A stretch of 64,000 bases of DNA from Panorpa germanica (lineage: Eukaryota; Arthropoda; Insecta; Mecoptera; Panorpidae). Shown here piece after piece: positions 38,501-64,000 of the stretch. The stretch is from positions 10,664,001 through 10,728,000 of the forward strand of contig OY783209.1 of NCBI GenBank assembly GCA_963678705.1. The letters run 5' to 3'. The notes beneath the pieces are model-generated. The model did not search any database and had not been told where the DNA came from. It saw only the letters and a list, made by a program, of their open reading frames with translations. Within the stretch, counting starts at the first letter, position 1. Every line of letters starts with the position of its first letter. The position numbers and the translations under genes are program-made.

Positions 38501-38975
38501 ATGTAATGAAGCAGTTATTTACTTTATAGCCTAGTAAATATAACTGCATCAAAAAATTTCAAGAAATCAAAAAAAAAATTTAGAAGAAAAAGTCCATGAT
38601 TTAAAAAAAGGTCGCATAAAAGCCAGAATCGCGTAGGTATTTAAAATGTAATTAAGCAGTTTCTTATTTTAGAACATAAGGAACTTAACTGCATCATAAC
38701 TTTTCAAGAAAATGGATTTTAATCTATTTTTAAAAATGTCCATGAACTAAAAAAAGGTCGCATAAAAACCAAAACCGCGTAGGTACTTAAAATCTTATAA
38801 TTCAGTTTTTTATTTCAGAACATAAAGAACATAACTGCATCAAATTATTCTAAAGAATCAAAAAAAAAAATTAGAAAAAAATGTCCATAAATTTAATAAA
38901 ACTTAGACATCATTGCGCCTGACAGAGCGGCAACATTACTTACGAGCAATATTTACAGTACAAGAAAATTATGTA
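35594..38975. mobile_element. Large foldback element with tandem-repeat arms
   Basis: Outer ends are inverted copies: TTCTTGTACTGTAAATTTTG at 35601 and its reverse complement near 38975, followed inward by GCTCGTAAGTAATGTTGC and CTGTCAGGCGCAATGATG. Each arm is a series of ~146-bp direct repeats containing GCGATTCTGGCTTTTATGCG and a CATGGAC-poly-T block. About six units lie at 35650-36660 and nine or more inverted units at 37560-38890. The inner arms around 36660-36760 and 37070-37160 are also inverted, around a centre near 36900. Degenerate repeat units continue to about 39500. No open frame. This is a foldback (FB-like) architecture; the family is unknown. Confidence 0.85.
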
Positions 38976-42153: not shown

Positions 42154-43010
42154 ATACTCCTAAAATAACACACTTGTAAACAAGGATTATCATCCAATAA
42201 TTATATCAGTGGGTTCTTATACCAACATGAATTTTTTTACAATTTGTGCGTGTAAGATAAATAAAGCCATCAATATTTTGATCAACAACCTAATTTAATG
42301 TAATAAATAATTAGATAATGCAAATTACTTCAAAAAGTTTATTCAATTAAACTAAATTATTTAAATTAACTTTTAAGTGAATTAGTTTTTATTTGTAAAT
42401 TATTATTGTATTTGTTTTTGTAAAATGTTCGAAAGAATTGTATAAAATTTTCCCAAAATGTTCTATTGATACAAATTAAATTTCATTTTTTAAGAGTGTT
42501 AGTCGCCTGTTGTATGTAACAATTCGTTTTTAATTTAATAAAGAAAACAAACCTTTTGTATCGAATAAGCTAAATTAATTTCAGCTATTATGTCCAAACC
42601 TAAATTTAAATAAATGGTTTTTAGGTATATGAAATTGTTTTATTTATAAAATTATTTAAGAGATTTATTCATAGTAATTATTTATTACATTTACTTCTCT
42701 AAAGTTTAATTTTTTAAGTAATAGTTTTTGAGAGAATATGTAACAATCTATCTTACAAAATAAAACCACCCGCCTCCTTGGTATATTCGTATTGTTTGTA
42801 TTTAACATGATGCTAGCAAAACAAAATGTATTAGAACAAAATCAGTTGTATGAAAGGGAGGTCAAAATGTAACTCCTTCCCGTATATAGTAATTAACAAT
42901 TAAATCCGGAGTTTTTGTAATTTATGTTGAATTGAGAGAAAAGTCTTACTATATTATAGTCTAATGTATAATAAATAAATATAGTAGAAATGAGAAGTTA
43001 CTAATTAATA
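42154..43010. other. Intergenic: Sar1 3' UTR and promoter of the first repeat-family gene
   Basis: Sar1 3' UTR with AATAAA near 42260, then AT-rich sequence. 42834-42955 is conserved with 51829-51951, upstream of the paralogue. Confidence 0.6.
42834..42955 (+). promoter_or_regulatory. Upstream block shared with the paralogue (copy 1)
   Basis: Contains AACAAAATCAGTTGTA, AACTCCTTCCCGTATA, AATTAACAATTAAAT and GGAGTTTTTGTAATTT in this order. The same blocks in the same order lie at 51829-51951, at similar distances from the respective ATG. As surrounding non-coding sequence has diverged, this is probably promoter or 5' UTR under constraint, or recently duplicated. Confidence 0.55.
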
Positions 43011-46000
43011 ATGTCTTACATAACGCAACGAAAGGAAAGAACCGGTACTATCTTTAACGATGATGTTAGACCATCTCGCAAAAGAAGCGATGGTCGTCTT
43101 AAACGATTCGAGTCCTCCACTGACACAAGAGCATGGAATATTTGTCCTGATGTTAGAAGCGTTTTCTTGTTAGATTATGTAGGGGCAAGCGGAACTCATG
43201 ACGCTACAGTGAGTACTTGTGTTACACAAAATCACATTGTGATGAACAATATCTGATACAGCATTTTATTTTTAGAATGATACCCAAGATGTAAGTATTA
43301 TAATTATTGTATTATTTGAGTACTTGAAAGAATTTGTTTTTTGAAGTGAAAAAAATAAAATTAACCCTAATTTCAACGATCTCAGAATAGTGATTAAGTT
43401 TCATTAATTCAACGTCGAATTTAATACTGAAATTATTAATTACTGCAATTAAATATTAAGTAAATTTGAATTCCTAAGATCAATGATTAGCATCTCGTTA
43501 GTTAGGCTTCGCATTTCTGTTGCGTTTCTTTTTTTAAAAAAAGGAAAGCATGTTTCGATACAACACAAAGTTTTGATAGTATCAACTTGTGAACAAAGAA
43601 AGATAAAATTAATTATTTTACTAATCATATGAATTTAAAATATGACTAAAAATTTAATCCAGCATCTAAATTTAAATTTGAAATAGCTATATCTCTGTCA
43701 ACTTTTGTACATTTAAAAAAATAAAAAGGGCAGTATATAAATAATAAAGGCATACTCGAATATTTTAATAAAGGAACACTTTATAATTTGTTAATAATTT
43801 TAATCTGTTATATTATTTGTAGGCAACCCGTGATGCGGCGTCTGGTGCGGAGGCGAGTATAGTTATTCCTTTTTTTAGCATAAAATGTATTAGCAGAAAA
43901 ATTACTGATTTGAAAGAACGTTTTTCTACAAAGATGTGGATTGGGTCTCGATTTAAAATTTGAAAATCTTCTACTTTAAAAATATGTTTTCCTGAATAAC
44001 TTTATTCTATTATGGCCAAAACCACAAAGAAAACCTACAAAAGGTTGAATCGCATCCTCATCTCTAGTTTTAGACACCTTTTAAAGATATCATTGCAATT
44101 AATATAATATTCTTTTATTTTTCAGACAGTTTTTCGGCCAGTAAGTAAAAATCACTAATTACTATTCGATTTCCTATTTATAGATAAAAAATATCATCTA
44201 AAATAACTAAAATATTTATCCTAATAATCAAGGCTGCAAATAATTTTATTTGCAGATGCTGACTACTGGAGATGGTGGTATTTGCAGATGTGGAAGGGTT
44301 TGTAAAAATATTCAAATCATCAATGTTACATTTAAAATAATTACATGATTTTTTAAGATCTTAAATTAATTTAAGATTATTCTCGAAGAGTTGGACGAAG
44401 AGGATGAAACGGAAGTAGCGGATGAAATGGTTGAAACGGATGATGCCACATTTAATAGAGAGAAGGTAATGTTATGTTACTCGGCGTATGAATATAGTTT
44501 ACTATGAAACAGTTTTATTAATTTTCTATGTAATTTTATTGTATTGGCTATCAGGAAACCACAAAATGACAAAAAAATCATACGCATCTTCAATATGATG
44601 TCAAAATGACCCCAAAATGTCTACTGGGTTTCTTCTAATATTATTCCTAACAATCTCCAAGTCTCTCTCGAACTCTTCCACGTTCTCGTTGATGTCCCGG
44701 TCCATTCTCCCGTATATTTTCATTCTTCTCTTCTTCTGCTCTTTCTTATCCAATTACTTCGTCTCCACCTATTTATATAAATTATAAATTAATAAAACAA
44801 AGAAAATATTTTATAATAAGTAGAATTAAACATAATACTGGTGCCAGGCTTATAATACTCAATAAACTTATAGCAATATTTACATGATATTCACCTATGC
44901 AAACATACCTGTTAAATAAATGTTACTTTTGCATTTATTGTGTAAGTAATATACTTTATAAGGAAATGATGTATCTTTTAATAACAAAATAAAATAAACT
45001 AATAATTTTATTCTTTATAGATTGCTGTAGTTGAATTAGAAAGTGTAAGTAAAATCGAAAATAACATGAAAGTATTATTTACATATCTGATACGAATTTA
45101 CAATGTAAATGTTAACTTACATGTTATTATAGAAAACGGATTTGCTATAATTCTTCTACATATTATATTAATTTTAATAATTATTTCAAAATATTTACAG
45201 ATTGGTGTAGGCGATAGTGATTCAGACGTAAGTGAGAAATATGAAAATAATAAAAAATATAATAAATATAAAATATATAGTATGTGACAAATTGTATTAG
45301 ACATTAATTATTGTTCTTTACGTTATGTTCCGTATTTTCAGAGAGGCACTACTTCCCGTTCCGTAAGTATTCTGTACAAACATTTTACTTATTCTAGAAT
45401 TTAGCAATATATACATACGGTCAATAAGTTCCTTGTTTTCAGGCATCCGTCAATGGTGAAACACGTCGTGTAGAACCAGATTCAGATGCCAGACCAGATT
45501 TAGAAACCAAACTGGATTATGCTCTTGAGGAAAACAAATATCTGCGAAAAAGATTAACATGCTGTGAGGAAAAGCTCAGTAAATGTCTCAGACAATTGGC
45601 TGACTATGGAGAATGTAACAATTATAATGTACCAGCAGAATTTAATCGTCTTGAAGAGAAACTTCTGAAATGTAATTTGTCGCAAGAGGACCAAATAAAG
45701 GCTTATAAGAGACAGGTCGAAGTTCTTAAATACTACTGCAAATCTCTACAGAAAATGAAGAAAGAAAATCGGTCTTCATTTTTCTCCAATTCAAGAGATG
45801 ATGTCAGTCTTTCTGCTACTTCCTCCGCTTCAGACGTTTCTTCAAACAACAGTCATATGCAGATCTTAGTTTCCGAACTGCGTGACACTGTATCGAACCT
45901 TAGATTTGTTAGGAAGGAGCGCGATTGTCTGCGAAATGAAATATTGCACTTGAAAAACAAAATTAATGAAGCTAATGAAAGCAATAGCGAAGAAATATCT

Positions 46001-49000
46001 ATTCTAAGAACACGGTCCAGTATTTTGGACAGCATTACTTCTGAGAGCAGTGACTCACACTACGAAGGAGATGATGAAGCGTTGAAGAAACTGATAAAAA
46101 GAATTAGAGATGCAGACCTATTGCGATCCGAACGTGATGCTGTGCTAATGGAATTAGATATATCCAAATCAGAATATGATAAATGTCAATGCGAAATTGA
46201 AAGTCTATCTAAAGAAATGTCATATCTGAGTAAATCTTTGGAAAGCATGTCATCAGAAAGGGATTTACTTTTGAAAAAAATTCAAGAATATCATAAGTTG
46301 GAAATGGAGTATGAAAAACTGGAGCGTCGTTCCAAAGAACAATATCGAAGTTTGGAGGTTTACCAAAAGAAACAGAGTATGTACAAATCGCGATGCAAAC
46401 AGATGAAGAAAATGGAAAACCAACTACGAAAAAACTTGTCTTGTGCGGAAAGTGATATAGCAAGTCAGGAAAATGAAATTGCTGCACTTGTGGATACTAT
46501 AAGTAAAATATCAGTAGAAAAAGTAAGCCTGAATTTATTTTTAATTTTGCATACAATATAGTTCGAGTGTAATTCAGCTGCAGTTGTTAATAGACCAACT
46601 CATTCCATGAGTATATTATATACAACCATAAGGAGCTTAATGTTTTCAATGTCTTCAACCTTTTCACTTGTGTTAACAATATAACATGAAGTAATATTTA
46701 TCTTTGTATTTCAGATAAAATGTAGAAGCTCCTTAAGCACATTGAATGTAGAGATGTCTCAAACGGCGTTTGAGTTGTGTATATGTAGAGATGAACTAAA
46801 ATCTTGTAAAGACCAAATAAAATCGAATGAACATTTACGATTTACCGCCTCAGGAACCGATCAACGGTTTGGCAGGAAAGGTAACCAAACCGAAATAGAA
46901 GGAAATGGATCAGATTGTGTGCAGCAAATACTGGACCAAGTTAGTGTTAAACAAAGAGAGCAAATTCAAAAAGGAGATTCAAATGATTCAAAAGTTCGTA
47001 TTATTGTTGAACTGTTAAAAGAAAATGATCAAGATGAACGAAAAGATGACTTTGAACTTTCAAGAAAAGGAGATAAACGAAATGGCGATGATGGCGATGA
47101 TGATAAACCTCCGAACAAAAGAAGGAAAAACGTCCCATCGACATGTGTGCTGGAATGTCCTATGCAACATATCAGATTTGCTTTACATGAAACAAATAAT
47201 GCTATAACTGCAATTATTCATAAAATTAAAGAAGAACACGAAAGCAAAAAAGCAGGAGCAACAAGTGAGCCTTGTGTATGCATTACAGAACTGGAAGAAG
47301 AAGATTCGGCTGATGCGGCCAAAGAATCAGAATCCGAGATTAATATGGCTACAGAGTGCGGTTGTAATAATATACAAGAAATAATTAAAAAGGTAGCAAC
47401 GTTACACGCAGAAAATAAAGCAATGAAACAGAAAATAGAAGAAGTTAGCGCCGAAACTGGACAGAGTTTTGGTGACCTCAATTTTGTTCCAACAGATACA
47501 GATGTTTCAAATGATGTCGAGTGTAATAGAATGAGAGATTTGTGTATGAGATTAAAATCTTTGCAGTATGCTCATGGGAAACTAAAAAAGTATTATGAAG
47601 AGGTTGGTGGAGGACCTTTAAATATAGCTGTGGGACCAGATGGTCATGTATTAGAACTTGGTCCAGATGGCAAACCAATTGGAATGCAATATGGTACAGA
47701 TGGTTTACCAATCTTAGGACCAGATGGAATGCCAATTGGAATGCAATATGGTCCAGATGGTTTACCAATCTTAGGACCAGATGGAATGCCAATTGGAATG
47801 CAATATGGTCCAGATGGTTTACCAATCTTAGGACCAGATGGAATGCCGATTGGAATGCAATATGGTCCAGATGGTTTGCCAATCATAGGGCCAGATGGAA
47901 AGCCAATTGGAATGCAATATGGTCCAGATGGTTTGCCAATCTTAGGAACAGATGGAAAGCCAATTGGAATGCAATATGGTCCAGATGGTTTGCCAATCTT
48001 AGGACCAGATGGAAAGCCAATTGGAGGTCAAGCCATTGGTGCTGATGGTTTGCCAATCATAGGACCAGATGGAAAGCCAATTGGAGGTCAAGCCATTGGT
48101 CCAGATGGTTTGCCAATCTTAGGACCAGATGGAAGGCCAATTGGAGGTCAAGCCATTGGTGCTGATGGTAAACCAATTGGAACACAAGCAATTGGTCCAG
48201 ATGGTAAACCAATTGGAACACAAGCAATTGGTCCAGATGGTAAACCAATTGGAACACAAGCAATTGGTCCAGATGGTAAACCAATTGGAACACAAGCAAT
48301 TGGTCCAGATGGTAAACCAATTGGAACACAAGCCATTGGCCCAGATGGTAAACCAATTGGAACACAAGCCATTGGTCCAGATGGTAAACCCATTGGAACA
48401 CAAGCCATTGGTCCAGACGGTAAACCAATTGGAACACAAGCAATTGGTCCAGATGGTAAACCTATTGGAACACAAGCAATGGGACCGGATGGTAAGCCAA
48501 TTGGAACACAAGCAATTGGTCCTGATGGTAAACCAATTGGAACACAAGCAATGGGACCGGATGGTAAGCCAATTGGAACACAAGCAATTGGTCTTGATGG
48601 TAAACCAATTGGAACACAAGCAATTGGTCCAGATGGTAAACCTATTGGAACACAAGCAATTGGACCGGATGGTAAGCCAATTGGAACACAAGCAATTGGA
48701 CCGGATGGTAAGCCTATTGGAACACAAGCAATTGGGCCGGATGGTAAGCCAATTGGAACACAAGCAATTGGTCCGGATGGTATGCCAATTGGAACACAAA
48801 CCATTGGTCCGGATGGCCAGCCAATTGGAACACAAACTATTGGTCCGGATGGGCAGCCAATGCAATTCCATGACCAAGGTGCAGGGTCGGAGTTAATAGG
48901 CTCGACTGGACAGGAATTGGCATCAGAAGTTGCTCTGACTCCTGAACAAAGAGCAGCTGTAGGTCAGGCATCATCTGTTCAAGGACAAGGCGCTGTACAT

Positions 49001-50923
49001 GGAGTTACAGGAGAAACTGCCTCTAAAGTTCCGCTAACAGCAGCACAACAAGCAGAAGCAGGGAAAGGAGCAGCAGGTGCCGGACAAACTGCTGAAAGTG
49101 GTGTTGCACAGTCTTCAAAAGGTACAACCGCAGATGATAACTGTTGTGCGGAATTGGATGCAATGAAAAAGGAAAACGCAAAACTGAATCAAGCTTTGAA
49201 AGCAGCCGGCATTACTCCTGATATGGCAGATCAACTTAGTAAGGAGCAACAAGCAAAAGACGATCTGATGAAATCGATTGATGGTCATAAAGATCAACTA
49301 GCAGCAGCAGCAGCAGGTCCAAATGTGGCTGGCATGAAGCCCGGAACACATGTACAGGGTCAATTAGATGATCTTACAGGTGAATTAAGTTCTTTGCAAA
49401 AAGAACACAGAGCTGACCTTGATAGAATGCAACGTGTGCACGGTGACATTCTGGACGAAACTATCAAATCGTACAGCCAAGACATTATGGAAATGGAGAA
49501 AGAAAAGTCGAAATGCATCTGTGACTTAGAAAGACAAACCAGGGAGTTAAAGCGCAAGCTGAATCAATGCAAAGTCGTAGTAAATAAGTTTATATTTTTT
49601 GTTTTCTTTATGATTAGAATATGATTTGCATTTATGTTATATAATTTACTTATCTTTTAAGAGTAAAACTCTTCCCTTGGATGCCAAAAAATGTACTTGT
49701 CCGAATGCCTTGACTGAAGACGAAATGGTTGCTACAGAAGCCGACATGGATAACATTATAAATAAACTAGCGAGTAGAGGGTTAAAGGTAATTGGAAGAT
49801 TTTTGGAAAGAATTCATTAACACTAAGTCATCTTGTTTGAATGAAATTCTATATACTTTTATTATTAGGCGCTCACATATAAAGATCTTAGAATACTGCA
49901 TGCAAAAACGTGTAAGGCGACAGCTGCCATGAAAGGATTAAAAGGACGCCGCGGGAGGTCTAGATCGGGGAAGTCCATTTCAGCTAGTGGTGTATCGAGT
50001 AAGTATAAGTTAAATTATAATTTTCTTAGAGAAAAGTTAACAATTTTAATCTTCATATTCCAGCTGAAAGGTCTAAATCTGAAAAAGATATTTGTATAAG
50101 TCCAATAGCTTTACAAAAATCTTATAAAAGTTTGCTAAAGAAGCAAATGTTTACCCAACAAAAGTGTAAGTAAATGAAATGTTTTATGTCATTTACGATA
50201 GCCTGGGTGTTCACAAATTTGTGGTATTTTAATTTTCAGTCGCATCACTTCAGTATAAAATGATTGAGGATAAAAACTCACTGGAGACAATGCGCCAGAT
50301 ATTGGAAGCAACACAAAAGGAAAATCTGCAATTCCGGGAACTACTTAGGGGCAAAATTTGTCAGTGCACGACTAATCTCCCAGTGTAAGTAAACAACATA
50401 TGGTGGTACCCTCATTACTGAACTAGACTTTATAAGTTGGCATTATTTTAGGAGCGATGCTGGTGAAATTGGAGGAACATATCGGTGTAAATGCGCTCTT
50501 AGATCGATGGCGACCCAACCCAATAAAAAGGTAATCCCCTTTCTTTAAACAATCGCATTTCGTTATAAAATAATTAAACAATGTTATGTAATCTGAAACT
50601 GTTTTCCAAAAATAGCATATGAAGATTTCTAAGCCACTGGTAAAGACTTGCAAATGCAATGAGAGAACGTGTGGATCTCAAGATCCTTGTGGTGCAGTTG
50701 CCCCTTGCGCAGACCCTGCAAATAACTTTCAAGTTTTCACGGCACTAACGTCAATGAGGATGTAAATATACGTTTCTTAATAAGTAAGATTTATTATTAA
50801 GAATTAATATTATAATATTGATTTTTAAATATTTTTTATAGACCAGATTTATCGGAGCTAGACGACAAAACGAATGACTTCATCAACAACATTAAATTCA
50901 AACGAAGTTCCAAAAAATTATAA
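43011..50923 (+). CDS. Large coiled-coil / GPDG-repeat / C-x-C protein, tandem gene 1
   Basis: No known family recognised. Eighteen exons: 43011-43208, 43276-43290, 43823-43852, 44126-44140, 44256-44297, 44376-44465, 45021-45044, 45201-45227, 45342-45362, 45443-46522, 46715-49579, 49662-49787, 49869-49998, 50064-50165, 50240-50384, 50452-50530, 50616-50761, 50842-50923. Total 1738 aa. Residues 1-66 are a basic N-terminus (MSYITQR, RKRSDGRLKR, LLDYVG). About 67-154 come from eight tiny phase-0 exons. About 155-514 are charged coiled coil. About 821-1230 are GPDG repeats. A second coiled-coil region (EEHRA/KEHRADLDRMQRVH) and Cys-rich exons follow. C-x-C occurs ten times (CRC, CQC, CIC, CVC, CGC, CIC, CTC, CQC, CKC, CKC). 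No signal peptide or membrane segment, so probably an intracellular structural protein (inference). AATAAA at about 51040. The donor of exon 3 would be GC (GAG|GCGAGT). Confidence 0.85.
47633..48861 (+). repeat. In-frame GPDGKPIG tandem repeat of gene 1
   Basis: The first part has 57-bp units (MQYGPDGLPILGPDGMPIG, six copies with MQYG, then units with GGQAIG). The second has about nineteen 36-bp units of GPDGKPIGTQAI with a few variants (TQAM, GLDG, GMPIG, GQPIG). All periods are multiples of three, so length changes keep the frame. Long open frames in the other frames and on the minus strand here are by-products of the repeat. Confidence 0.97.
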
Positions 50924-52008
50924 ATTAGTAATTATTTATATAATCAAAAATATACACTGTCAAATAAATTAATGTTCTAATCATCTGTAAAACATATGTT
51001 TGTGAAAGTATTGTAAAGTACAGTATTTGTAAATTTCAAAATAAAAGCAACTGACTGAAAACAAAATTATTTATGAGTTATTATTTGTCCAGCTGATAAT
51101 TTGAATATATATTAATGCAATATACATAACATTTGGTTGAGAGTTGGTCAAATGCCTTGTTTCATTTACCATATTTAACGTTGCTCCTCCATTTTGCAAG
51201 TTTGTCTTATGTTTTGTACAATAAATGTAGCTCGTAACCGTTTAGTATCGATGCTAATTCCAAAGTTTACTCTAGAATGCACTAGAATGTAATTTTTGAA
51301 TTTTATACGGGGAAGAATGGGCTTGTGAATTCATTTTTCGGGGTTGATTTCTTAATTTTCGATTGTAATAAATTTTAATATATGTATTTTTAGTTTTGTC
51401 ACTTGTTTTACAAGTAATAAGTAATTGAGATGTGTGAGAATGGCGATTATTTTTCCTTTTTTATAATCTTCCTAACATAATACTTCACGGGATACACAAA
51501 GCAGCTGTTAATAGCGTCTCTGATGGCAAATCGATGCATCAAAATTTTGTATAACCAACGTTATACCTTTTAATAATTAAAGAGACAAAATGACTTTTTT
51601 AATTGGTAATATGGCCTAAAATATAGCTAGCTACATTAAAAAAGAATTGGAAATTTGATTTTCAGGTAGCCCACTTCATCAATATATAGAACAGTTATTT
51701 ATATTTCTGGAAAACAAGCTTCAAAAATTAAAGCAGCAATCAAAGCATGAATGTCATTTCAAAATTTCCCATTAGATTCATGACCGGCGCCTGCTTTCAG
51801 GGTTTATCATTAAACAAAATAATATTGAAACAAAATCAGTTGTAAAGAAAGAAGGTGAAACTAACTCCTTCTGTATGTACCAATTAACAATAAAATTGGG
51901 AGTTTTTGTAATTTTTACATGAATTGAAAGAAATAACTTACTATATGTTCTAAATATAGTCAATGTGTTGTACATAGATATAACAGAAAAGCCAATAACT
52001 CATCAGAA
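50924..52008. other. Intergenic between genes 1 and 2
   Basis: Gene 1 3' UTR with AATAAA near 50963 and 51040. From about 51313 a sequence starting GGGCTTGTGAATTCATTTTT and an internal AATTAAAGAGACAAAATGAC block (51570-51600) shows a diverged relative of the GGGCTTGTG element family. The end of the intergenic region carries the conserved upstream block of gene 2. Confidence 0.6.
51829..51951 (+). promoter_or_regulatory. Upstream block shared with the paralogue (copy 2)
   Basis: Counterpart of 42834-42955: CAAAATCAGTTGTA, AACTCCTTCTGTATGTA, AATTAACAAT and GGGAGTTTTTGTAATTTTTA, ending about 57 bases before the gene 2 ATG (about 55 for gene 1). Likely promoter or leader. Confidence 0.55.
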
Positions 52009-55000
52009 ATGTCTTACATTACACAGCGAAAGGAACGGACGGGTTTATTTAGCTATGAGCACGCGCCAACTCGCAAAAGAAGCGATGGTCGTTTGAAACG
52101 ATTCGATTCTTCAACTGATGCGAGAGCATGGAATATCAGTCCCGATATTAGAAGTGCTTATTTGTTAGATTATGTGGGGAGAAATAGAACTCATTCTACT
52201 GAAGTGAGTCCAATTATTACATAAAATCAGAATGTAATTTAAATAGATGTTAATATCTGATACAACGTTTCATTTTTAGGATAATGGTGAACAGGTATTA
52301 CAACATTTCTATTATGTTGAATTTTCAAACAATTTTGTTTTTTGAAAAACTACTTAAATCTGAATTAAAAAATGTTCGTTTCTTTTTCAGGCTGCGCCGG
52401 TGAGTAACAAATAATTCCAACATTCTCTAGTATATTAAAAGAAATAATTCTGTGTATTTAAGATAGTTCCAGCGTGGTATAGTATAGTCAGAACATTTAC
52501 TACCCAGTAAACATTTAGTGAAGTGCCCTATTTTGTGACGTTTTTATCACTATTTCACTTCAATTATAGTTCGCATCAACTTTATCTTCATTTGTATTCC
52601 GACAGGTGGAGTGGTTCCGTCATCTGTAGCCGATAAAACAGACATTTCATATGAACGATTGTGAAAAACTGAACTATAAATGAACTCTTTCATGACAAAA
52701 AAATCATACGCATCTCCAATATATTGGACATCATATATGATGTCAAAGTGACTCCAAAATGCTCCAAAATGTATACTGGGTATTGTCAGAAATTCAAAAC
52801 TTTACACGAATACCCACAAATACTGTCAAATATTTTCGGTTACGGTTATCTGCCAATGTTGCAAAATGCCTTACTGCCATCAAAGATTTATAATTCTCGT
52901 TCTTTAGTCTACACTACTCGAGATAATTTTGCGCGCAGCGTTGCGAGATCACCATTGACCATGAAAAGAACGTGATGGAATTAACAAAATTGATATTTTA
53001 CATTATTATATCTCGAATATAAAACTGTGAAATGCAATTTCTTTTTTAAATTTATTTAAAAACATTTTTCTTTACTCTCCCAAAAATTTTCAAAATTCTA
53101 TCGCGAGATTTTTTGTAAATAATAGAAAATAGGAAGTTTTACATGCTTCAAATGGGAGTTGAAACTCCGGAATTTATTAGTAAACATTATTCTTAACCTA
53201 TAAATAAGAATTTCAAAATATCTATCGAGTAGTGGCTGCATGCTGGAACTACCTAGTTTTACTTGTTTGTTACAATCACATTAAATGTATTGCATATTTG
53301 TCTTTTGCAGTTGATGGTGGACACAGCTGTAAGTTTTATTAATATATCTTTGCTATATATGTATTATATTCTATAAATTAACATAATATCAAAGTGATCA
53401 GTTTCATTGATGCTCTGAACATTTTAAAATTTTATGTTAAAAAATTAAATAAAAAATGAACGAGGTAATCTAATCGAAAGAATCCTATGCTACTCACTAG
53501 ATAATGTCATAAAGAAGGTAAATTTTTTATTAAAATCGACTGATACATTTCGAGATACCGTGGCGGTCAGTTCAAAAACAGTAATTTCGAGTTAAATGCA
53601 ACAGAAGAAATATATACGAATATACTACAGCGCTAAATTTAAATTGCAAACTTAGGTAATATTCGGAGTTGGTTTGGGTAAACTATTAAAATATTCTCAA
53701 AAGTAAAGTTAATAAATTTAAACAAAAAACTCCTCCTTAATTAATACATAATAACAAATAAAATCATTTAAAATAACTCAAATATTTACAGATTGCTCCA
53801 GACGGACTAAATAATAGATTTGTAAGTAAAAATTAATATCGATGTTTTAATTGATCCTAATAATCAGGCACTTTAAATTGCTTTCTATTTGCAGATGTTG
53901 ACACCAGGAGATCGAATTTGCAGATGTGGAAGGGTGGGTTTGTACAAATACACAAATCATCAATATCAAATTCAAAATAACTGCTAAATTGTTTTCTAAA
54001 TTATTTGTCACATGCTATCGTTAATTCAATATTTTCAAAAATAGTTACCAGTAAATAAATAAAGTATCTAGATATTTTGGAAGTATCTGAAGAGTAATTT
54101 GAGCAAACTGGTATTTTGTTCCTTTAATTGGCAGCGCCTTAATAAACTATTTTGGTACGGAGTGAGTAATATATTCTTACAATACCAAATAAATCAATTT
54201 TAGATATTGCAAGATGTCTCGGAAGAAACAGATGAAACAGAAGAAACAAATGAAACCGAAGAAGCGGATGAAACCGAAAAAGCGGATGAAACCGAAAAAG
54301 CTGATGAAACGAAAAAAACGGATGTAATGGTTAGAAAGGAAACAACTCTATCTTCATTTAATTATCTATCTTAAATTTATATTCCCTCTTATAAATATTA
54401 CTTTTGTGTACACATCATAAAGAGTGTAACATAACCTAACTAAAGTTAAATAAACTAATAATTTTATTCTTTATAGATTACAGGAGGTGAAATAGAAAGT
54501 GTAAGTAACATGAAATTGCAAAGTAATTGGTAAAATACCGTTTGTAAGGTTTACAGTAAACATATCTGTTATATTACTCCTACATATTATATTAATTTTA
54601 TTAATTATTTCAAAATATTTACAGATTGGTGTAAGCGATAGTGATTCAGACGTAAGTAAAAATTAATATAAATACGAGGCATGTTTTTTAAGGAAGTACC
54701 GTTTTGCGTTTCCGCCTTTGCAGCGCTACGCTCGGCGTTCCGCGCATGCGCGCTGGTTACCTACATCTCTTGTCTACGCACTGACGTCATTACAGTCTGA
54801 TTCTTCATTGTATACGTTGTTTACTGAGTGTTTAAGATGCCTCCGACAATCGTGAGTCCCGCCGATTGTGAAGTACGGGCTGTTATACGATTTCTTAGTG
54901 CTAAAGGCGTAAAACCGATCGATATTCATCGTGAGATGTGTGAAGTTTACGGACAAAACATTATGAGTGATGGAATGGTAAGGAAATGGGTGAGAGCATT

Positions 55001-58000
55001 TAAAGATGGCCGCACAAATGTGCATGATGAAGAACGGAGTGGGCGTTCTTCGGTTTTTACAGTACAGTGGTTAACAAGTTAGGCGGCAGAATTTTATGAG
55101 GAGGGTATTCAAAAACTGGTGCCACGTTATGACAAGTGTCTCAATATTCACGTAAATTATGTAGAAAAGTAGATTAAGGTACAGGCTTTCATGTAAAAAT
55201 AAAATTATTGCGATATCTTTGCACGTCTTTTTTTAATTCCAAAACGGTACTTACTTAAAAAACACGCCTCGTATATAGTATGTGACAAATTGTATTAGAC
55301 ATTAATTATTGTTCTTTACATTATGTTCCGTATTTTCAGAGAGGCACTACATCCCGTTCCGTAAGTATTCTGTACAAACATTTTATTTATTCTAGAATTT
55401 AGCAATACATACATACAGCCAATTAGTTTCTTGTTTTCAGGCATCCGTCAATGGTGAAACACGTCGTGTAGAACCAGATTCAGAAGCCAGACCAGATTTA
55501 GAAACCAAACTGGATTATGCTCTTGAGGAAAACAAATATCTGCGAGAAAGATTAACATGCTGTGAGGAAAAGCTCAGTAAATGTCTCAGACAATTGGCTG
55601 ACTATGGAGAATGTAACAATTATAATGTACCAGCAGAATTTAATCGGCTTGAAGAGAATCTTCTGAAATGTAATTTGTCGCAAGAGGACCAAATAAAGGC
55701 TTATAAGAGACAGGTCGAAGTTCTTAAATACTACTGCAAATCTCTACAGAAAATGAAGAAAGAAAATCGGTCTTCATTTTTCTCCAATTCAAGAGATGAT
55801 GTCAGTCTTTCTGCTGCTTCATCCGCTTCAGACATTTCTTCAAACAACAGTCACATGCAAATCTTAGTTTCCGAACTGCGTGACACTGTATCGAACCTTA
55901 GATTTGTTAGGAAGGAGCGCGATTGTCTGCGAAATGAAATATTGCACTTGAAAAACAAAATTAATGAAGCTAATGAAAGCAATAGCGAAGAAATATCTAT
56001 TCTAAGAACACGGTCCAGTATTTTGGACAGCATTACTTCTGAGAGCAGTGACTCACACTACGAAGGAGATGATGAAGCGTTGAAGAAACTGATAAAAAGA
56101 ATTAGAGATGCTGACCTATTGCGATCCGAGCGTGATGCTGTGCTAATGGAATTAGATATATCCAAATCAGAATATGATAAATGTCAATGCGAAATAAAAA
56201 GTTTATCTAAAGAAATGTCATATCTGAGTAAATCTTTGGAAAGCATGTCATCAGAAAGGGATTTACTTTTGAAAAAAATTCAAGAACATCATAAGTTGGA
56301 AAAGGAATATGAAAAACTGGAGCGTCGTTCCAAAGAACAATATCGAAGTTTGGAGATTTACCAAAAGAAACAGAGAATGTACAAATCGAAATGGAAACAG
56401 ATGAAGAAAATGGTAAACCGACTACGAAGAAACTTGTCTTGTCAAGAGAACGAAATTGCTGCACTTGTAGATACTATAAGCAAAATATCAGTAGAAAAAG
56501 TAAGTCCGAATTTTACCATGATTATACGACATCAACTATAAGGAAACTAAACGACATTAATCTTTTCTATGTCTTCAATGCCTGTGTTAACAATATAACA
56601 ATAAGTAATATTTATCTTTGTATTTCAGATAAAATGTAAAAGCTCTTTAAGCACATTGAATGTAGAGATGTCTCAAACGGCGTTTGAGTTGTGTATATGT
56701 AGAGATGAACTAAAATCTTGTAAAGACCAAATAAAATCGAATGAACATTTACGTTTCACCGCCTCAGGAACCGATCAACGGTTTGGTAGGAAAGGTAACC
56801 AGCTCGTAATAGAAGAATCAGATATTATACAACAAATACTAGAGCAAATTAATGATGAACAAAGAAGGAAAATTGAAAAAGGTAAATCGAATGATTCCAA
56901 AATTCGTATCATAGTTGAACTTTTAAAAGAAAGAGATGAAGAGAAAAGGACAGACGACTATGGACTTCCAAAAAAAGAAGATAAACGGAAAGACGAATTT
57001 GGTATTTCAAGGAAAGAAGATAAACACAAGGATAATAGTGATAAGCCCCCAAACAAAAGAAGGAAAAACGTCCCATCGACATGTGTGCTGGAATGTCCTA
57101 TGCAACATATCAGATTTGCTTTACACGAAACAAATACTGCTATAACTGCAATTATTCATAAAATTAAAGAAGAACACGAAAGCAAAAAAGCAGGAGCAAC
57201 GAGTGAGCCTTGTGTATGCATTACAGAACTGGAAGAAGAAGATTCGGCTGATGCGGCCAAAGAATCAGAATCCGAGATTAATATGGCTACAGAGTGCGGT
57301 TGTAATAATATACAAGAAATAATTAAAAAGGTAGCAACGTTACACGCAGAAAATAAAGCAATGAAACAGAAAATAGAAGAAGTTAGCGCCGAAACTGGAC
57401 AGAGTTTTGGTGACCTCAATTTTGTTCCAACAGATACAGATGTTTCAAATGATGTCGAGTGTAATAGAATGAGAGATTTGTGTATGAGATTAAAATCTTT
57501 GCAGTATGCTCATGGGAAACTAAAAAAGTATTATGAAGAGGTTGGTGGAGGACCTTTAAATATAGCTGTGGGACCAGATGGTCATGTATTACAACTTGGT
57601 CCAGATGGCAAACCAATTGGAATGCAATATGGTCCAGATGGTTTACCAATCTTAGGACCAGATGGAATGCCAATTGGAATTCAATATGGTCCAGATGGTT
57701 TACCAATCTTAGGACCAGATGGAATGCCAATTGGAATGCAATATGGTCCAGATGGTTTGCCAATCTTAGGACCAGATGGAAAGCCAATTGGAATGCAATA
57801 TGGTCCAGATGGTTTGCCAATCTTAGGACCAGATGGAAAGCCAATTGGAATGCAATATGGTCCAGATGGTTTGCCAATCTTAGGACCAGATGGAAAGCCA
57901 ATTGGAACGCAATATGGTCCAGATGGTTTGCCAATCTTAGGACCAGATGGAAAGCCAATTGGAATGCAACATGGTTTAGATGGTTTGCCAATCATAGGAC

Positions 58001-60918
58001 CAGATGGAAGGCCAATTGGAGCTCAAGCCATTGGTCCTGATGGTAAACCAATTGGAGCACAAGCAATTGGTCCAGATGGTAAACCAATTGGAACACAAGC
58101 CATTGGTCCAGATGGTAAACCAATTGGAACACAAGCCATTGGTCCTGATGGTAAACCAATTGGAACACAAGCCATTGGTCCTGATGGTAAACCAATTGGA
58201 ACACAAGCCATTGGTCCAGATGGTAAACCAATTGAAACACAAACCATTGGTCCTGATGGTAAACCAATTGGAACAGAAGCCATTGGTCCAGATGGTAAAC
58301 CAATTGGAACACAAGCAATTGGTCCAGATGGTAAACCAATTGGAACACAAGCCATTGGTCCTGATGGTAAGCCTATTGGAACACAAGCAATTGGTCCTGA
58401 TGGTAAACCAATTGGAACAGAAGCAATTGGTCCTGATGGTAAACCAATTGGAACACAAGCAATTGGTCCAGATGGTAAACCTATTGGAACACAAGCTATT
58501 GGTCCAGATGGTAAACCAATTGGAACGCAAACTATTGGCCCAGATGGTACGCCAGTCGGAACACAAGTCATTGGACCAGATGGTCAACCAGTTGGAACGC
58601 AAACCATTGGTCCAGATGGTAAGCCAATTTCCATAACGGAAGATACAGGAGTAGGTGAATCAATGCAATTCCATGACCGAGATGCAGGGTCCGAGTTAAT
58701 AGGCTCAGTTTCACAAGAATTGGCATCAGGAGTTGCTCTGACTCCGGAACAAAGAGCAGCTGTAGGTCAGGCATCATCTGTTCAAAGACAAGGCGCTGTA
58801 CGTGGAGTTACAGGCGAAACTGCATCTAGTGTTCCCCTAACAGCAGCACAACAAGCAGAAGCTGGGAAAGGGGCAGCAGGTGCAGAACAAACTGCTGAAA
58901 GTGGTATTGCACAGTCTTCGCAGGGTACAACCGCAGATGATAATTGTTGTGCGGAATTGGATGCAATGAAAAAGGAAAACGCAAAACTGAAAAAAGCTTT
59001 GAAAGCAGCCGGCATTAACCCTGATATGGCAGATCAACTTAGTAAGGAACAACAAGCGAAAGACGATCTGATGAAATCGATTGATGGTCATAAAGATCAA
59101 CTAGCAGCAGCAGCAGCAGGTCCAAATGTTGCATCTGATGGCATCAAAATCAAACCACCTCTAAGGGGTCAATTAGATGCTCTTACAGGTGAAGTAAATA
59201 TATTAGTGTGTAGGCACTTTACAGCATGGTAATATAAATGAAATGAATGTATTAGTAATATTTGGCTATGTTTTATGGTTGTGTTATTTTATCCAACAGA
59301 AACTATAAGAAAAAGTCAGGAAGAAGTTGATTCTTTGTCTGAAGAACACAGAGCTAACCTTGATAGAATGCAACGTGTGCACGATGACATTCTGGACGAA
59401 ACTATCAAATCGTACAGCCAAGACATTATGGAAATGGAGAAAGAAAAGTCGAAATGCATCTGTGACTTAGAAAGACAAACCAGGGAGTTAAAGCGCCAGC
59501 TGAATCAATGCAAAGTCGTAGTAAATAAGTTTATATTTTTTGTTTTCTTTATGATTAGAATATGATTTGCATTTATGTTATATAATTTACTTATCTTTTA
59601 AGAGTAAAACTCTTCCCTTGGATGCCAAAAAATGTACTTGTCCGAATGCCTTGACTGAAGACGAAATGGTTGCTACAGAAGCCGACATGGATAACATCAT
59701 AAATAAACTAGCGAGTAGAGGGTTAAAGGTAATTGGAAGATTTTTGGAAAGAATTCATTAACACTAAGTCATCTTGTTTGAATGAAATTCTATATACTTT
59801 TATTATTAGGCGCTCACATATAAAGATCTTAGAATACTGCACGCAAAAACGTGTAAGGCGACAGCTGCCATGAAGGGATTAAAAGGACGCCGCGGGAGGT
59901 CTAGATCGGGGAAGTCCATTTCAGCTAGTGGTGTATCGAGTAAGTATAAGATAAATTATAATTTTCTTAGAGAATAGTTAACAGTTTTAAGAGTTTCAAT
60001 TACAAATTGTTTTCTCATATTCCAGCTGAAAGGTCCAAATCTGAGAAAGATATTTGTATAAGTCCAATAGCTTTACAAAAATCTTATAAAAGTTTGCTAA
60101 AGAAGCAAATGTTTACCCAACAAAAGTGTAAGTATATGAAATGTTTTATGTCATTTACGATAGCCTGGGTGTTTACAAATTTGTGGTATTTTAATTTTCA
60201 GTCGCATCACTTCAGTATGAAATGATTGAGGATAAAAACTCACTGGAGACAATGCGCCAGATATTGGAAGCAACACAAAAGGAAAATCTGCAATTCCGGG
60301 AACTACTTAGGGGCAAAGTTTGTCAGTGCACGACTAATCTCCCAGTGTAAGTTAACAACATATGGTGGTACCCTCCTTACTGAACTAGACTTTATAAGGT
60401 GGCATTATTTTAGGAGCGATGCTGGTGAAATTGGAGGAACATATCGGTGTAAATGCGCTCTTAGATCGATGGCGACCCAACCCAATAAAAAGGTAATCCC
60501 CTTTCTTTAAACAATCGCATTTCGTTATAAAATAATTAAACAATGTTATGTAGTCTGAAATTGTTTTCCAAAATAGCAAATGAAGACTTCTAAACCACTT
60601 GGAAAGACTTGCAAATGCAATGAGAGAAGGTTTAAATCTGAAGAACCTTGTGGTGCAGTTGCCCCTTGCGCAGACCGAACAAAAAACTTTCAAGTATTCA
60701 CAGCGATAACGCCAATGAGGATGTAAATATACGTTCTTTAATAATAAAGTTTTTTTATATTCAAATCTGCGAAAGAGATTTGCGTGAGCGCGTTACTTGA
60801 AGACCCAATAATGTTATAATATTCTCTTTTTCATTTTTTGTATAGGCCAGATATGTCAGAACTAGACGACAAAACGAATGACTTCATCAACAACATTAAA
60901 TTCAAACCAAGTTCCTAG
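52009..60918 (+). CDS. Large coiled-coil / GPDG-repeat / C-x-C protein, tandem gene 2
   Basis: Paralogue of the gene at 43011-50923; function unknown. Twenty exons: 52009-52203, 52280-52294, 52391-52399, 53311-53328, 53792-53821, 53895-53933, 54204-54329, 54477-54500, 54625-54651, 55340-55360, 55441-56499, 56629-59188, 59300-59520, 59603-59728, 59810-59939, 60026-60127, 60202-60346, 60414-60492, 60577-60722, 60846-60918. Total 1714 aa. Exons 2-10 are 9-126 nt, all phase 0. Exon 7 encodes an acidic run of ADETEK/ETDETEE repeats. Residues about 169-521 are coiled coil, 836-1190 GPDG repeats, then coiled coil and Cys-rich exons with CTC, CQC, CKC, CKC. Relative to gene 1 it has an extra intron (59189-59299) and a mariner in intron 9. 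Ends SFKPSS-like (KFKPSS) before TAG. AATAAA at about 61020. Confidence 0.85.
52503..52780. mobile_element. Short TIR element (CCCAGTAAACA family)
   Basis: Starts CCCAGTAAACATTTAGTGAA and ends GTATACTGGG, in intron 3 of gene 2. Its left end matches the inverted right end of 3360-4212. A solo end of the same family (ATCATACGCATCTTCAATAT ... TCTACTGGG) lies at about 44569-44630 in an intron of gene 1. Confidence 0.6.
54675..55271 (+). mobile_element. Internally deleted mariner element, copy 2
   Basis: Same ends as 26525-27122 (CGAGGCATGTTTTTTAAG ... GCCTCG), flanked by TA at 54673-54674 and 55272-55273. It lies in intron 9 of gene 2. The matching intron of gene 1 (45228-45341) shows the uninterrupted TATATAGTATGTGACAAATT sequence, that is the empty site. 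It retains the transposase N-terminal part and the C-terminal end but not the catalytic middle. Confidence 0.92.
54837..55082 (+). pseudogene. Truncated mariner transposase remnant
   Basis: Starts [20 protein letters not shown] and reads through the N-terminal helix-turn-helix region to DEERSGRSSVF, then leaves the family at a deletion junction (TVQWLTS, stop). The C-terminal coding end follows out of frame to about 55171. It cannot make active transposase. Confidence 0.88.
57571..58634 (+). repeat. In-frame GPDGKPIG tandem repeat of gene 2
   Basis: Seven 57-bp units (M/I/T-Q-Y/H-G with GPDGLPILGPDGKPIG), then about seventeen 36-bp units of GPDGKPIGTQAI with variants (GAQAI, GTEAI, ETQTI, TPVGTQVI). 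Copy number and variant order differ from gene 1, showing independent expansion and contraction. Confidence 0.97.
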
Positions 60919-61345
60919 AAATCGTAAATTAATAATTTGTTATATACTCAAAGCTATACATTGTCAAATAAATTAATGTTCTAATCATCTGTAATCTGTA
61001 CAGCATTTGTAAATTTCAAAATAAAAGCAACTGACTGAAAAAAGAAAGAATTATTGAAACATTAATGACATCCATTTACATTGGCAACTTTGCACGCCGC
61101 TCAACATGCTCAATCGAGTTAAAAGAGCAAGATACGTTGACTAAATCTGTACCGGATTTGTTAATAATCCCTCGTCATTGGAAAATATTGTGACAGTTAA
61201 ATGAAACAATTAATCAATTTGAAACAAAATTGAATAAGTAAATAAAAAATGAAAGCTTCTAATTGTGTCATAATATAAAATAAATTTAACGTAATAACGT
61301 AATGTTATTTTTTCGAAATAAATTCAAGGCCAATGTGAATAAACC
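60919..61345. other. Intergenic between genes 2 and 3
   Basis: Only 427 bases. Gene 2 3' UTR with AATAAA near 60966 and 61020, then AT-rich leader of gene 3. The upstream block shared by genes 1 and 2 is not evident here. Confidence 0.6.
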
Positions 61346-64000
61346 ATGTCCTACATAACCCAACGAGAGCAGAGAAGATTGGAAAGCGATCTGATGGAAG
61401 TGTATCATTCTAACAGGAAGAGAAGTGAGGGCCGTTTGAAACGGATAGACTCTTGCAATGATCGTAGATCCTGGCATGTTAGCGATCGAGTTAAAAGCGT
61501 GTACTTGATTGATTACGTTACCCATCATGGAACTCAACGTGTGAGTAAACCTTGAATTGCTTGTTGCTTAAATCTCTTCAAATATTAATACATGTTTTCT
61601 TTTTGCTACCTATAGAATTATATTGACAAGACTGAAATGGTAAGCATAATACGTTTTTCCTAAGGTTTCTCGGACATTGCGACCTAGATTAAAGAGCCCT
61701 AAATTAAACAATACTAGTCCTTCTTTATTAAAAGAGATTTTATTTTCAGACAAATGCTTCTGGCGCTGCAACGGTAGCAAAAGTTCAATTATTTTAATTA
61801 GTGTTCAATGGGCTTGTGTCCTCATTTTTTAGTGGTCGATTTTTCAATTGTTGATTGAAATTGATGTTAATAAATGTGTATTGGCGTGTCTATTTTATTA
61901 AATATCTAAATATTGACAGAGATATAGCAATTAAAAGTTTGAATTGTAGTTTTAGCGCTAGAAATGGTCGGCCATATTTGTATGACGTGAAATGTATTTT
62001 AACGTCAGTTATTTGTTAAGTAGGCCAGTACTGTGGTAATGTTCTGTAGCTGTTGGTAGTCGAATAATCAAGTCAAATCAAAGAATAATAAGTTTTTATT
62101 TTACTTAACCCAGATAAGGCAGACATAATATTGAAATTTGATTGTTCCTTGAAATAGCTGTAAATAATATTTGATATTTTGATATATAAATACATATAGC
62201 AGAGATTTATGAGCTGTAAGGTTGGTAACCTTGCACAATGGTTGTGATGTCACATGCACTTGGAATGTGTACAACGTTGAATTCCTTTATTAATTAAAGA
62301 GACAAAATGACTTTTTTAATTGTTAATATCTCTTAACATATAAGGAGTTATTAAAAAATAATTGAACAATTTCAGGTTCTAGTAACCTACTTTATCAATA
62401 TATAGTACACTTTTATAAAAATTAAGACATAGGACACAAGCCCATTGTGTTGTGACGCCTATTATTTTAATTTGTTATTTGATCATTTTATCTTAGTTAA
62501 ATGGGCTTGTGAACTCTTTTTTTAGGGGATATTTTTTAAATTTTTGATCAAATCTGAATTTCAATTTTGTTTTAATGAAGTTGGGGAAATGCAGATGAAA
62601 TATATATACGATATTCATGATAGACTTCTTTCAGAAACTAAATGGAATAATAAAGAATGATGAAGTCCCCACGCCTTCTTCAAAATACGCTCTGCTTGAA
62701 AATGAGTTCTTGCGTTCAAGGTTAGCCGAGTGCGAGGAACAGCTCTCCAAATGTCAGCTTCAACTTGTAAAGGTTGGCATCATCGATTTCCCTAATAGAG
62801 TCAATATGATAGAAGAAAAGTTAACAAAAAGCTGTCTATCATATAAGGAACAAATTCAATTATATAAAGAGCAAGTGAACATGCTTAAGAGTCATTATCA
62901 GACCTTAGAACTTGTCAAAGAAGAAAATGATTCGCTTAGCGCTCAACTGAGTTCATATTTTGAAAGTCAAGACAATCTAAATAATCCTAGTGCACCTATA
63001 CACCTGTCATCAGCTGTCTCTTGCGATTCTATGAGATCTCGTAATCTTCCAAGCAAAGTCTCGGAACTACGTAGCACGGTTGTAAGTTTTCAATCTGTCA
63101 AAAAGGAACGTGATTCTCTTCGTAAGGAGGTGGAACGACTCAACAAACGACTTCAGCAAAACAATGAAAAGTATTGCGGCGAGTTACTGTGTCTGAGAAA
63201 ACAAGCGCGTGTACTAAAGACTGTCATTGAAGAACGAGATGAATTACGGTCACTCCTTAACCGCTATGAAGGTGTTGACGAAACCATGAAGATGCTGTTA
63301 AAGAAAGCTAAGGATGTAGAGTGTATCCGGAAAGATCGAGACTCGATAAGAATTGAACTAGACCGTGTTAAAAGAAAATACGACAAATGTTTGGGCGACC
63401 ATCAAGAATTGTCTGTACAAGCAGAAATGATGCGGTCTTATGCAAATATTTCTTTAGCGGAGGAAGAACGTTTAATGAAATTAAGCATTTTCTATAAAAA
63501 TTTAGAAAATGAGAATAAAGAGTTGACGAAGAGTTTACAAAATATTAAAAGTGAAAGAGACATGTTTAAATCACAATGGGGTAAAAATATGTCACTAATT
63601 GTGAAGAGGAACCAGAAAGGACTTGATATGAGCAGCCAGGTTGATGGCTTAAAAGTATCAACTGCAGCAACCCAGTGTATCCCTTTCAAAGAAGAGAAAA
63701 CATCTGTTACACAGGTAAGTGTTTCTAATCATAGTGAGATTGAATATTAGTTTGTGTTAACATTGGTCGTTATTTTAAAGCAAACACAGAATAATTCTGT
63801 AGCTGTAGCCAAAGTCCAAACATCAATGAACAAACTGAAGGACCAAATAAAGCAAACCAATGATTGCAGCGCTCTGAACTCAATTCTCCTTCAAATTGGT
63901 GACAAACAGAGAAGAGAAATTGAATTCGAGAAAACAACCGAAGGAAGAATTCAATCCATTATACAATTATTAAAACAATCGGAGGGTTGCCCTCGTGATG
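61346..64000 (+). CDS. Diverged paralogue of the tandem family, gene 3 (3' end outside window)
   Basis: Third head-to-tail member; function unknown. Exons 61346-61540, 61616-61639, 61750-61773, 62635-63714 and 63781 onward, all phase 0. The N-terminus keeps MSYITQR, RKRSEGRLKR and VYLIDYV. The 1080-nt fourth exon, the same length as in gene 1, encodes coiled coil with ALLENEFLRSRLAECEEQLS and EEKLTKSCLSYKEQIQLYKE, colinear with the long exon of genes 1 and 2. The last visible exon (LNSILLQIGDKQRREIE, IQSIIQLLKQ) matches the start of their giant exon. The exons for ICRCGR and the acidic run are not found; the intron where they would lie is filled by a MITE (61808-62445). Whether it has the GPDG repeat cannot be seen. 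Confidence 0.8.
61808..62445. mobile_element. TIR element family C, copy 2
   Basis: Near-identical relative of 8335-8971 with perfect short ends: GGGCTTGTGTCC at the left and GGACACAAGCCC at the right. It lies in intron 3 of gene 3. A further end fragment of the same family (GGGCTTGTGAACTC) follows at about 62502. Confidence 0.88.

Follow-up and report, generated by a model that had tools for sequence, protein, structure and literature searches.

Introduction

Cysteine-rich, repetitive structural proteins that duplicate and are not secreted are common in the male germ line, and the sperm-tail proteins of the ODF and Mst types carry dense repeats of a cysteine-glycine-proline type. A further point of comparison is provided by the bicycle genes of aphids and relatives, a diverging family with many small exons in which, according to PMC9168663, nearly all internal exons have phase 2 and N-terminal signal sequences are present in many of the encoded proteins. 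Here we analysed an array of large paralogous genes of the mecopteran Panorpa germanica, located on contig C6 (OY783209.1) of a genome of 464 Mb in 249 contigs. The window, i.e., the whole stretch of 64,000 nucleotides under analysis, corresponds to C6:10664001-10728000, and the following 112 kb were joined on to give a 176-kb region in which positions beyond 64000 carry on the window numbering. We interpret the array as the tandem expansion of one family of large structural proteins that stay inside the cell, most likely, by analogy, in the male germ line, an interpretation to which we assign a probability of about 0.4. Its members would resemble the cysteine-rich sperm-tail proteins of the Mst(3)CGP and ODF types in being intracellular, cysteine-containing, repetitive and fast-evolving, and differ from them in their long coiled coils, their few C-x-C pairs and the lack of any Pfam match to such a family.

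Results and Discussion

Extent and members of the array

Eleven paralogues, designated g1 to g11, lie head-to-tail on the + strand over about 102 kb (C6:10707011 to about 10809330, the end falling at about 145.3 kb of the region). The in-frame starts on the + strand are as follows:

43011, +, start of g1
52009, +, start of g2
61346, +, start of g3
64923, +, start of g4
70775, +, start of g5
78640, +, start of g6
85377, +, start of g7
119884, +, start of g8
128516, +, start of g9
131360, +, start of g10
138563, +, start of g11

Three of these genes begin inside the window, each with MSYITQR, as the sequence-only reading had recognised; what that reading took for a three-gene array is in fact one of eleven genes with two dispersed relatives. 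The N-terminal signature that it had assigned to the three paralogues lies in exon 1. The shared exon 1 of the family reads MSYITQR...RKRSEGRLKR...LLDYV, and the basic RKRS-GRLKR-type motif occurs in most members.

A genome-wide search with the MSYITQ pattern returned 16 places, against a single place for the reversed control; 11 of the 16 fall within 10707011-10802563 of C6, on the + strand. When exon 1 of the relative on contig C2 was used as a protein query, 12 places were found, namely C2:23541645 and C6:13312801 (both on the minus strand) and ten of the 11 array genes; the search missed g4, whose exon 1 has diverged. Together with g4, identified by the pattern and by in-frame reading, exon 1 is thus present in 13 loci, the twelfth member being the gene on C2 and the thirteenth a gene on C6 that lies 2.5 Mb from the array and clearly shares exon 1. 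The pattern places on C3, C11 and C13 had no match in the exon-1 protein search and are probably due to chance. A 64-residue coiled-coil piece of g6 used as query detected ten places, every one within the array, g11 being the missing member.

Gene models

The structure of g1 was rebuilt by splice-site reading and the other genes were modelled with a purpose-written spliced protein-to-genome aligner, several last-exon ends being set by hand. The features of the three genes that start in the window are listed below, with lengths in amino acids (aa) and nucleotides (nt):

43011..43208, +, g1 exon 1, N-terminal module MSYITQR...RKRSDGRLKR...LLDYV
43276..45362, +, g1 eight small phase-0 exons of 15, 30, 15, 42, 90, 24, 27 and 21 nt
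45443..46522, +, g1 coiled-coil exon, 360 aa (1080 nt), heptad z 6.4 against shuffles
46715..49579, +, g1 giant exon, 955 aa (2865 nt), with GPDG tract (tandem-repeat rows 47659-48852)
49662..50923, +, g1 C-terminal exons (seven) carrying C-x-C pairs, FINNIKF close to the terminus, stop 50921-50923
52009..55360, +, g2 exon 1, then eight small exons of phase 0
55441..56499, +, g2 coiled-coil exon, 353 aa (1059 nt)
56629..59520, +, g2 giant exon 56629-59193 with GPDG tract, then exon 59320-59520
59603..60918, +, g2 seven C-terminal exons ending in FINNIKFKPSS, stop 60916-60918
61346..61540, +, g3 exon 1
62635..63714, +, g3 coiled-coil exon, 360 aa (1080 nt)
63781..64000, +, g3 last exon (short form), crossing the window edge to the stop at 64111-64113 and adjoining the point equivalent to EPCVC of g1

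The g1 model consists of 18 exons encoding 1,738 aa with consistent phases and ends at 50923; its 17 introns comprise 13 of phase 0, two of phase 1 and two of phase 2, and the splice sites are canonical with the exception of one GC donor, required by the 30-nt small exon. These are exactly the figures first proposed for g1, while the second paralogue, originally given as 20 exons and 1714 aa, was rebuilt as 19 exons and 1,699 aa. A giant exon had been attributed to all three genes and was found in g1 (2865 nt) and g2 (2565 nt), g3 being a short form. The small exons of g2 (15, 9, 18, 39, 126, 24, 27 and 21 nt) correspond one by one to those of g1, all eight of each gene being multiples of three and of phase 0, and the 42-nt exon of g1 encodes CRCG; the g10 and g11 models have no small-exon block. 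Near the end of its giant exon g2 contains an intron (59194-59319) that is absent from g1, and inspection by eye showed introns at a roughly equivalent position in g5, g6, g10, g11 and the C2 gene. In eight of the 11 array genes (g1, g2, g4, g5, g6, g8, g10 and g11) the giant exon is followed by a C-terminal end with FI(N/S)NIK, and the C2 model, which includes six of the seven C-terminal exons, stops short of this end.

Coiled-coil exons and selection

A coiled-coil exon of 353-450 aa occurs in all 11 array genes and in the C2 gene, and the conserved length noted earlier for the first three genes (1080, 1059 and 1080 nt) was borne out, together with a heptad signal above that of shuffled sequences. 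The 3.5-residue periodicity exceeded the shuffle mean in 12 of 12 exons (z 3.0-9.2); with 200 shuffles each, the g5 value was reached three times and that of the other members never. All 12 exons are free of stops, which taken alone is weak evidence because exon picking favoured stop-free stretches, and the gap between the proportions of synonymous (pS) and nonsynonymous (pN) differences is the stronger point. For every pair except g1-g2, pS was at least 0.64, near or at saturation, with pN of 0.35-0.54 in the coiled-coil exons, and the C-terminal exons of eight members gave pS of at least 0.65 and pN of 0.32-0.51. The g1-g2 pair returned a synonymous divergence (dS) of 0.07 and an omega of 0.26 in the coiled-coil exon, and 0.08 and 0.38 respectively in the C-terminal exons. 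Purifying selection acts on both the coiled-coil and the C-terminal exons.

Two of nine inner branches were starred in the coiled-coil tree (g1-g2 and g9-g10) and one of five in the C-terminal tree (g1-g2), and the order of duplication is otherwise not resolved by the trees. On sequence grounds, the array members look like real genes, with open exons, synonymous change that is saturated but amino-acid change that is constrained, intron phases that agree and an upstream element common to many of them.

These data bear directly on the possibility that the array is partly decaying, with some members active and others, chiefly g3, g7 and g9, representing remnants of unequal crossing-over. Both g3 and g9 stop about seven residues or less past the same homologous point, reading GEPCS-stop and QPCKCSDKPSID-stop respectively where g1 has EPCVC, and the ATG of the next gene follows 0.8 kb after the g3 stop and 0.5 kb after the g9 stop; g7 shows two long open stretches in one frame with an in-frame stop between them, and a search for its C-terminal exons found none. 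However, the coiled-coil exons of these same three genes are open and constrained with near-saturated synonymous divergence, and the FI(N/S)NIK end is kept in g4, g5, g8, g10 and g11, so that we regard partial decay as unlikely.

C-terminal exons and cysteine pairs

The C-terminal exons are entered in phases 0,0,1,1,2,0,2 in g1, g2, g4, g5, g6, g10 and g11, the first six of these phases being shared by the C2 gene, and g8 has six such exons. An alignment of the C-terminal regions of g1, g2, g5, g6, g10 and g11 (g4, g8 and C2 were left out) revealed nine invariant cysteines, eight of which form four C-x-C pairs, and the FI-NIKF end. In seven of eight C-terminal regions no more than 5 of 2000 shuffles reached the observed number of C-x-C pairs; for the eighth, that of C2, the figure was 26 of 2000, and g8 was outside this set of eight. 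The stretch C14:13095001-13097000 encodes RDSFRGKQCGCTTNPPDE followed by C-x-C and PPCGQPYC; its database scores were not significant (E 1.19 and 0.435), so that it ranks as no more than a possible additional relative of the C-terminal module.

Comparison with known families

Six pieces of g1 and five pieces of its relatives were scanned against Pfam, and the sole family above its cut-off was DUF7486 on the GPDG tract of g1. Exon 1 and the C-terminal exons, searched separately and without the repeat, gave no Pfam family above cut-off; against PDB the C-terminal profile reached a best E of 0.11 and the exon-1 protein had no match at E 10. No named family in Pfam or PDB thus accounts for either end, in agreement with the proposal that no known family has this combination of features. 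Up to E 1, the Pfam matches of the g1 and g6 C-terminal exons did not include a Tesmin/LIN54-type CXC domain, and queries of the open-licence PMC literature on DUF7486, the GPDG repeat, the family motifs, insect sperm and a spermatocyte promoter motif gave no relevant paper. These negatives hold for Pfam and PDB and do not extend to insect proteomes, so that homologues may exist, quite possibly among public proteins annotated only as "uncharacterized". The locus had been put forward as an undescribed system: a tandem family without a recognised name is indeed present, and the word "system" goes beyond the evidence.

An alternative role as a nuclear, centrosomal or spindle scaffold would cast the basic exon-1 motif as a nuclear localisation signal, with a coiled coil working as in CENP-F-like or TPR-like proteins. 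It is favoured by this motif, which most members have, by an RS-rich stretch and by weak matches of g1 to CENP-F_leu_zip (PF10473, on the coiled-coil exon, 24.1 bits, E 4e-5, cut-off 34.5) and to Nucleoprot-TPR (E 0.0031). Such families share heptad-repeat rods with the array, but both matches lie under the curated cut-offs, coiled coils yield matches of this kind freely and core cell-division genes rarely become fast-diverging arrays; we consider the scaffold role improbable, to about the same degree as partial decay.

Spacer repeats and probable exchange between g1 and g2

The GPDG repeat had been included among the family traits and proved to be a variable insert. GPDG-like motifs number 38 in the giant exon of g1, 33 in g2, 30 in g6 and 4 in g5, with 0 in g4, g7, g8, g10 and g11 and none seen by eye in C2, the repeat being abundant in three of ten giant exons. 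Unrelated repeats occupy the others, such as SSSKGAEAGV in g5 (7 matches), PNRSLLVQV in g8 (5), QVQQ in g10 (4) and, by eye, QHISQASASAG in C2. The flanks of the giant exon can still be recognised by eye, with NxAIxAIIxKIK...EPCVC before the spacer and RMQDLAxATKKANELANEN after it, the latter being reduced in g1 and g2.

The GPDG tracts of g1 and g2 are built from 12- and 19-residue units. DUF7486 (PF24307) scores 38 bits on the g1 tract against a cut-off of 27 and covers the repeat alone; the g6 tract gave no match to it at E 0.01, and seven of ten giant exons have no abundant GPDG. An AlphaFold2 (AF2) model calculated from a single sequence (g1 47540-48880, 447 aa) had a mean predicted local distance difference test score (pLDDT) of 61 and a predicted template modelling score (pTM) of 0.38, with each 12-residue unit folded as a strand and a turn. 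Foldseek matched this model to engineered OspA, designed proteins and Rhs-type repeats, and the best E of the tract against PDB sequences was 0.029. The repeat was discarded as a clue to structure or homology, the AF2 beta meander and the generic Foldseek matches merely reflecting regular repeats.

The GPDG tracts and the strand-and-turn model might also suggest secreted silk, cuticle or glue proteins, in which the repeat would serve as an elastic or beta-sheet element. Judged by hydropathy only, none of the 11 array genes has a hydrophobic N-terminal segment, the highest 12-residue Kyte-Doolittle mean within the first 50 residues being 0.71, and the restriction of abundant GPDG to three giant exons and the low score and generic matches of the model also argue against secretion products, which we judge very unlikely. 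Finally, insect effector genes of the bicycle type, which the eight consecutive small exons of g1 and g2 and the fast evolution of the family might recall, were rejected as extremely improbable, as two of 17 g1 introns are of phase 2 and 11 of 11 array genes show no signal-like segment in their hydropathy, both differing from what PMC9168663 describes, and as the array encodes long coiled coils.

The identity between g1 and g2 is about 70-75% in the longer matches over 42.8-45.25 kb and then rises to 88% and 90% over 45.27-51.07 kb. Such a step is suggestive of copying of the 3' part from one gene to the other, by gene conversion or unequal exchange.

An upstream element

The upstream element is bipartite, with A(A/C)ACAAAA(T/G)(C/T) as its first half, a gap of 10-40 bases and (T/A)GTAAC as its second half. 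The 176-kb region contains five copies on the + strand and none on the - strand. All five copies lie 104-193 bp upstream of the ATG of g4, g5, g6, g10 and g11, and the C2 gene has a copy at -157. Taken by itself, the first half has 19 and 13 matches on the two strands of the region, and in ten of 13 genes (g2, g3, g4, g5, g6, g7, g9, g10, g11 and C2) it lies less than 200 bp from the ATG. With up to four mismatches, the 18-base core of g2 was found in six of 13 upstream regions (g1, g2, g4, g5, g10 and g11) and in 22 of 1000 random 320-base windows of the region; g8 and the distant C6 gene matched it no better than common windows do. The copies of the first three genes are:

42834..42851, +, g1 variant of the element, 2/18 mismatches to the g2 core
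51828..51845, +, g2 copy of the element core, 181 bp upstream of the ATG
61222..61231, +, g3 copy of the element core, 124 bp upstream of the ATG

The position of the element and its presence at the unlinked C2 gene appear less circular as indications than its enrichment.

Across the genome, with both strands counted, AAACAAAATY-N12-40-TGTAAC gave 621 matches and its reversed control 289. Most of the places listed, which are on C1 and C2 only, are an identical 29-mer of a dispersed repeat. Because this repeat dominates the listed matches, the genome-wide excess is no evidence for a promoter class, and the idea of such a class was abandoned. The dispersed element itself carries the 29-mer AAACAAAATTTAAAACTTTTTTTTGTAAC in many copies among the matches listed, e.g., C1:864306-864334.

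The proposed structural role

In the structural role that we favour, the coiled coils would form dimeric rods, the repeats would act as variable spacers and the cysteine pairs could provide disulfide cross-links between neighbours or bind metal, so that the assembled proteins might build a filament, sheath or matrix, most likely in the male germ line, in the sperm tail or the spermatid. The architecture itself, a coiled coil, a low-complexity spacer and cysteine pairs, is of an ordinary kind. The main hint to sperm-type proteins, not a strong one, would come from the relative at C6:13.3 Mb, where an unbroken frame of 2,490 codons (C6:13303895-13311364, minus strand) with 113 cysteines, proline-cysteine tracts and CDPECxALE-like modules lies downstream of the exon-1 copy. 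Cysteine/proline tracts of the PPC type were seen only in this frame; cysteine makes up 1.1-2.1% of the giant exons of nine array members, which therefore do not show the dense repeats of ODF and Mst proteins.

Several observations weigh against this interpretation. The C6:13.3 Mb frame is joined to exon 1 by a model only, and the sperm assignment draws on analogy. RKRSEGRLKR and RS-rich stretches such as GRRGRSRSRS would also suit a nuclear protein. The models of g3, g7 and g9 have no C-terminal exons and g7 has an in-frame stop, and the C-x-C pairs are mostly gone in g8 and partly gone in g4. The bipartite element as written is absent from g1, g2, g3, g7, g8, g9 and the C6:13.3 Mb gene, and its enrichment is partly circular because the motif was written from the marked genes, with C2 in view.

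Neighbourhood and other observations

As noted at the outset, exons of an Arf/Sar-type GTPase, probably Sar1, lie directly upstream of g1 (window 40860-42150; Pfam Arf, E 1.8e-24). Farther upstream are exons of the slowpoke BK potassium channel (window 31699-32825; Pfam Slo-like_RCK and Slowpoke_C, E 2.1e-42), to which further exons, e.g., near window 2184-2381, presumably also belong. Two tandem arrays of 146-bp units (window 35664-36661 and 37461-38901) have consensus units that look mutually reverse-complementary by eye, and window 26678-26947 encodes the N-terminal helix-turn-helix of a mariner-type transposase (Pfam HTH_48).

Between g7 and g8 a duplicated block (region 93973-118000; C6:10757973-10782000) contains near-identical open frames 14-16 kb apart, presumably of ABCA transporters, a 69-aa piece of which had no Pfam match at E 0.01; reverse-transcriptase-like frames and a partial copy of g7 at 102221-102922 are also present. 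Downstream of g11, on the minus strand of C6 (region 146913-151745), lie two similar enoyl-CoA hydratase-like genes or gene parts, one 59-aa piece of which matched Pfam ECH_2.

The mitochondrial contig C249 (16,386 bases) has the tRNA order I-Q-M, then ND2 and W-C-Y; ARAGORN labels trnS1 as Lys(ctt), the anticodon not being settled. This order fits an insect and speaks against most moths and butterflies, since M-I-Q is the arrangement of most Lepidoptera. Nineteen of 20 COX1 matches, each partial, lie outside this contig (C1, C3, C5, C6, C10, C12, C15, C16, C21 and C115) and represent mitochondrial DNA copied into the nucleus. No match in the genome was obtained for six-fold arrays of TTAGG or TCAGG.

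Implications

As a broader and more doubtful proposal, the genes may tentatively be viewed as an undescribed insect superfamily in which the ends and the coiled-coil rod are kept under selection, one unrelated tandem repeat after another (GPDG, SSSKGAEAGV, PNRSLLVQV, QHISQASASAG) takes over the spacer, neighbours are partially homogenised and an upstream element is held in common, i.e., a rapidly evolving structural set shaped, for example, by sperm competition or genetic conflict. These very large and apparently functional insect genes without a domain-library match constitute a well-defined set for expression and knock-out work, and the swapping of spacer repeats within a fixed framework offers a natural series for asking what role the spacer has. 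If the proteins are components of sperm, the array could be considered a candidate case of sperm evolution specific to a lineage.

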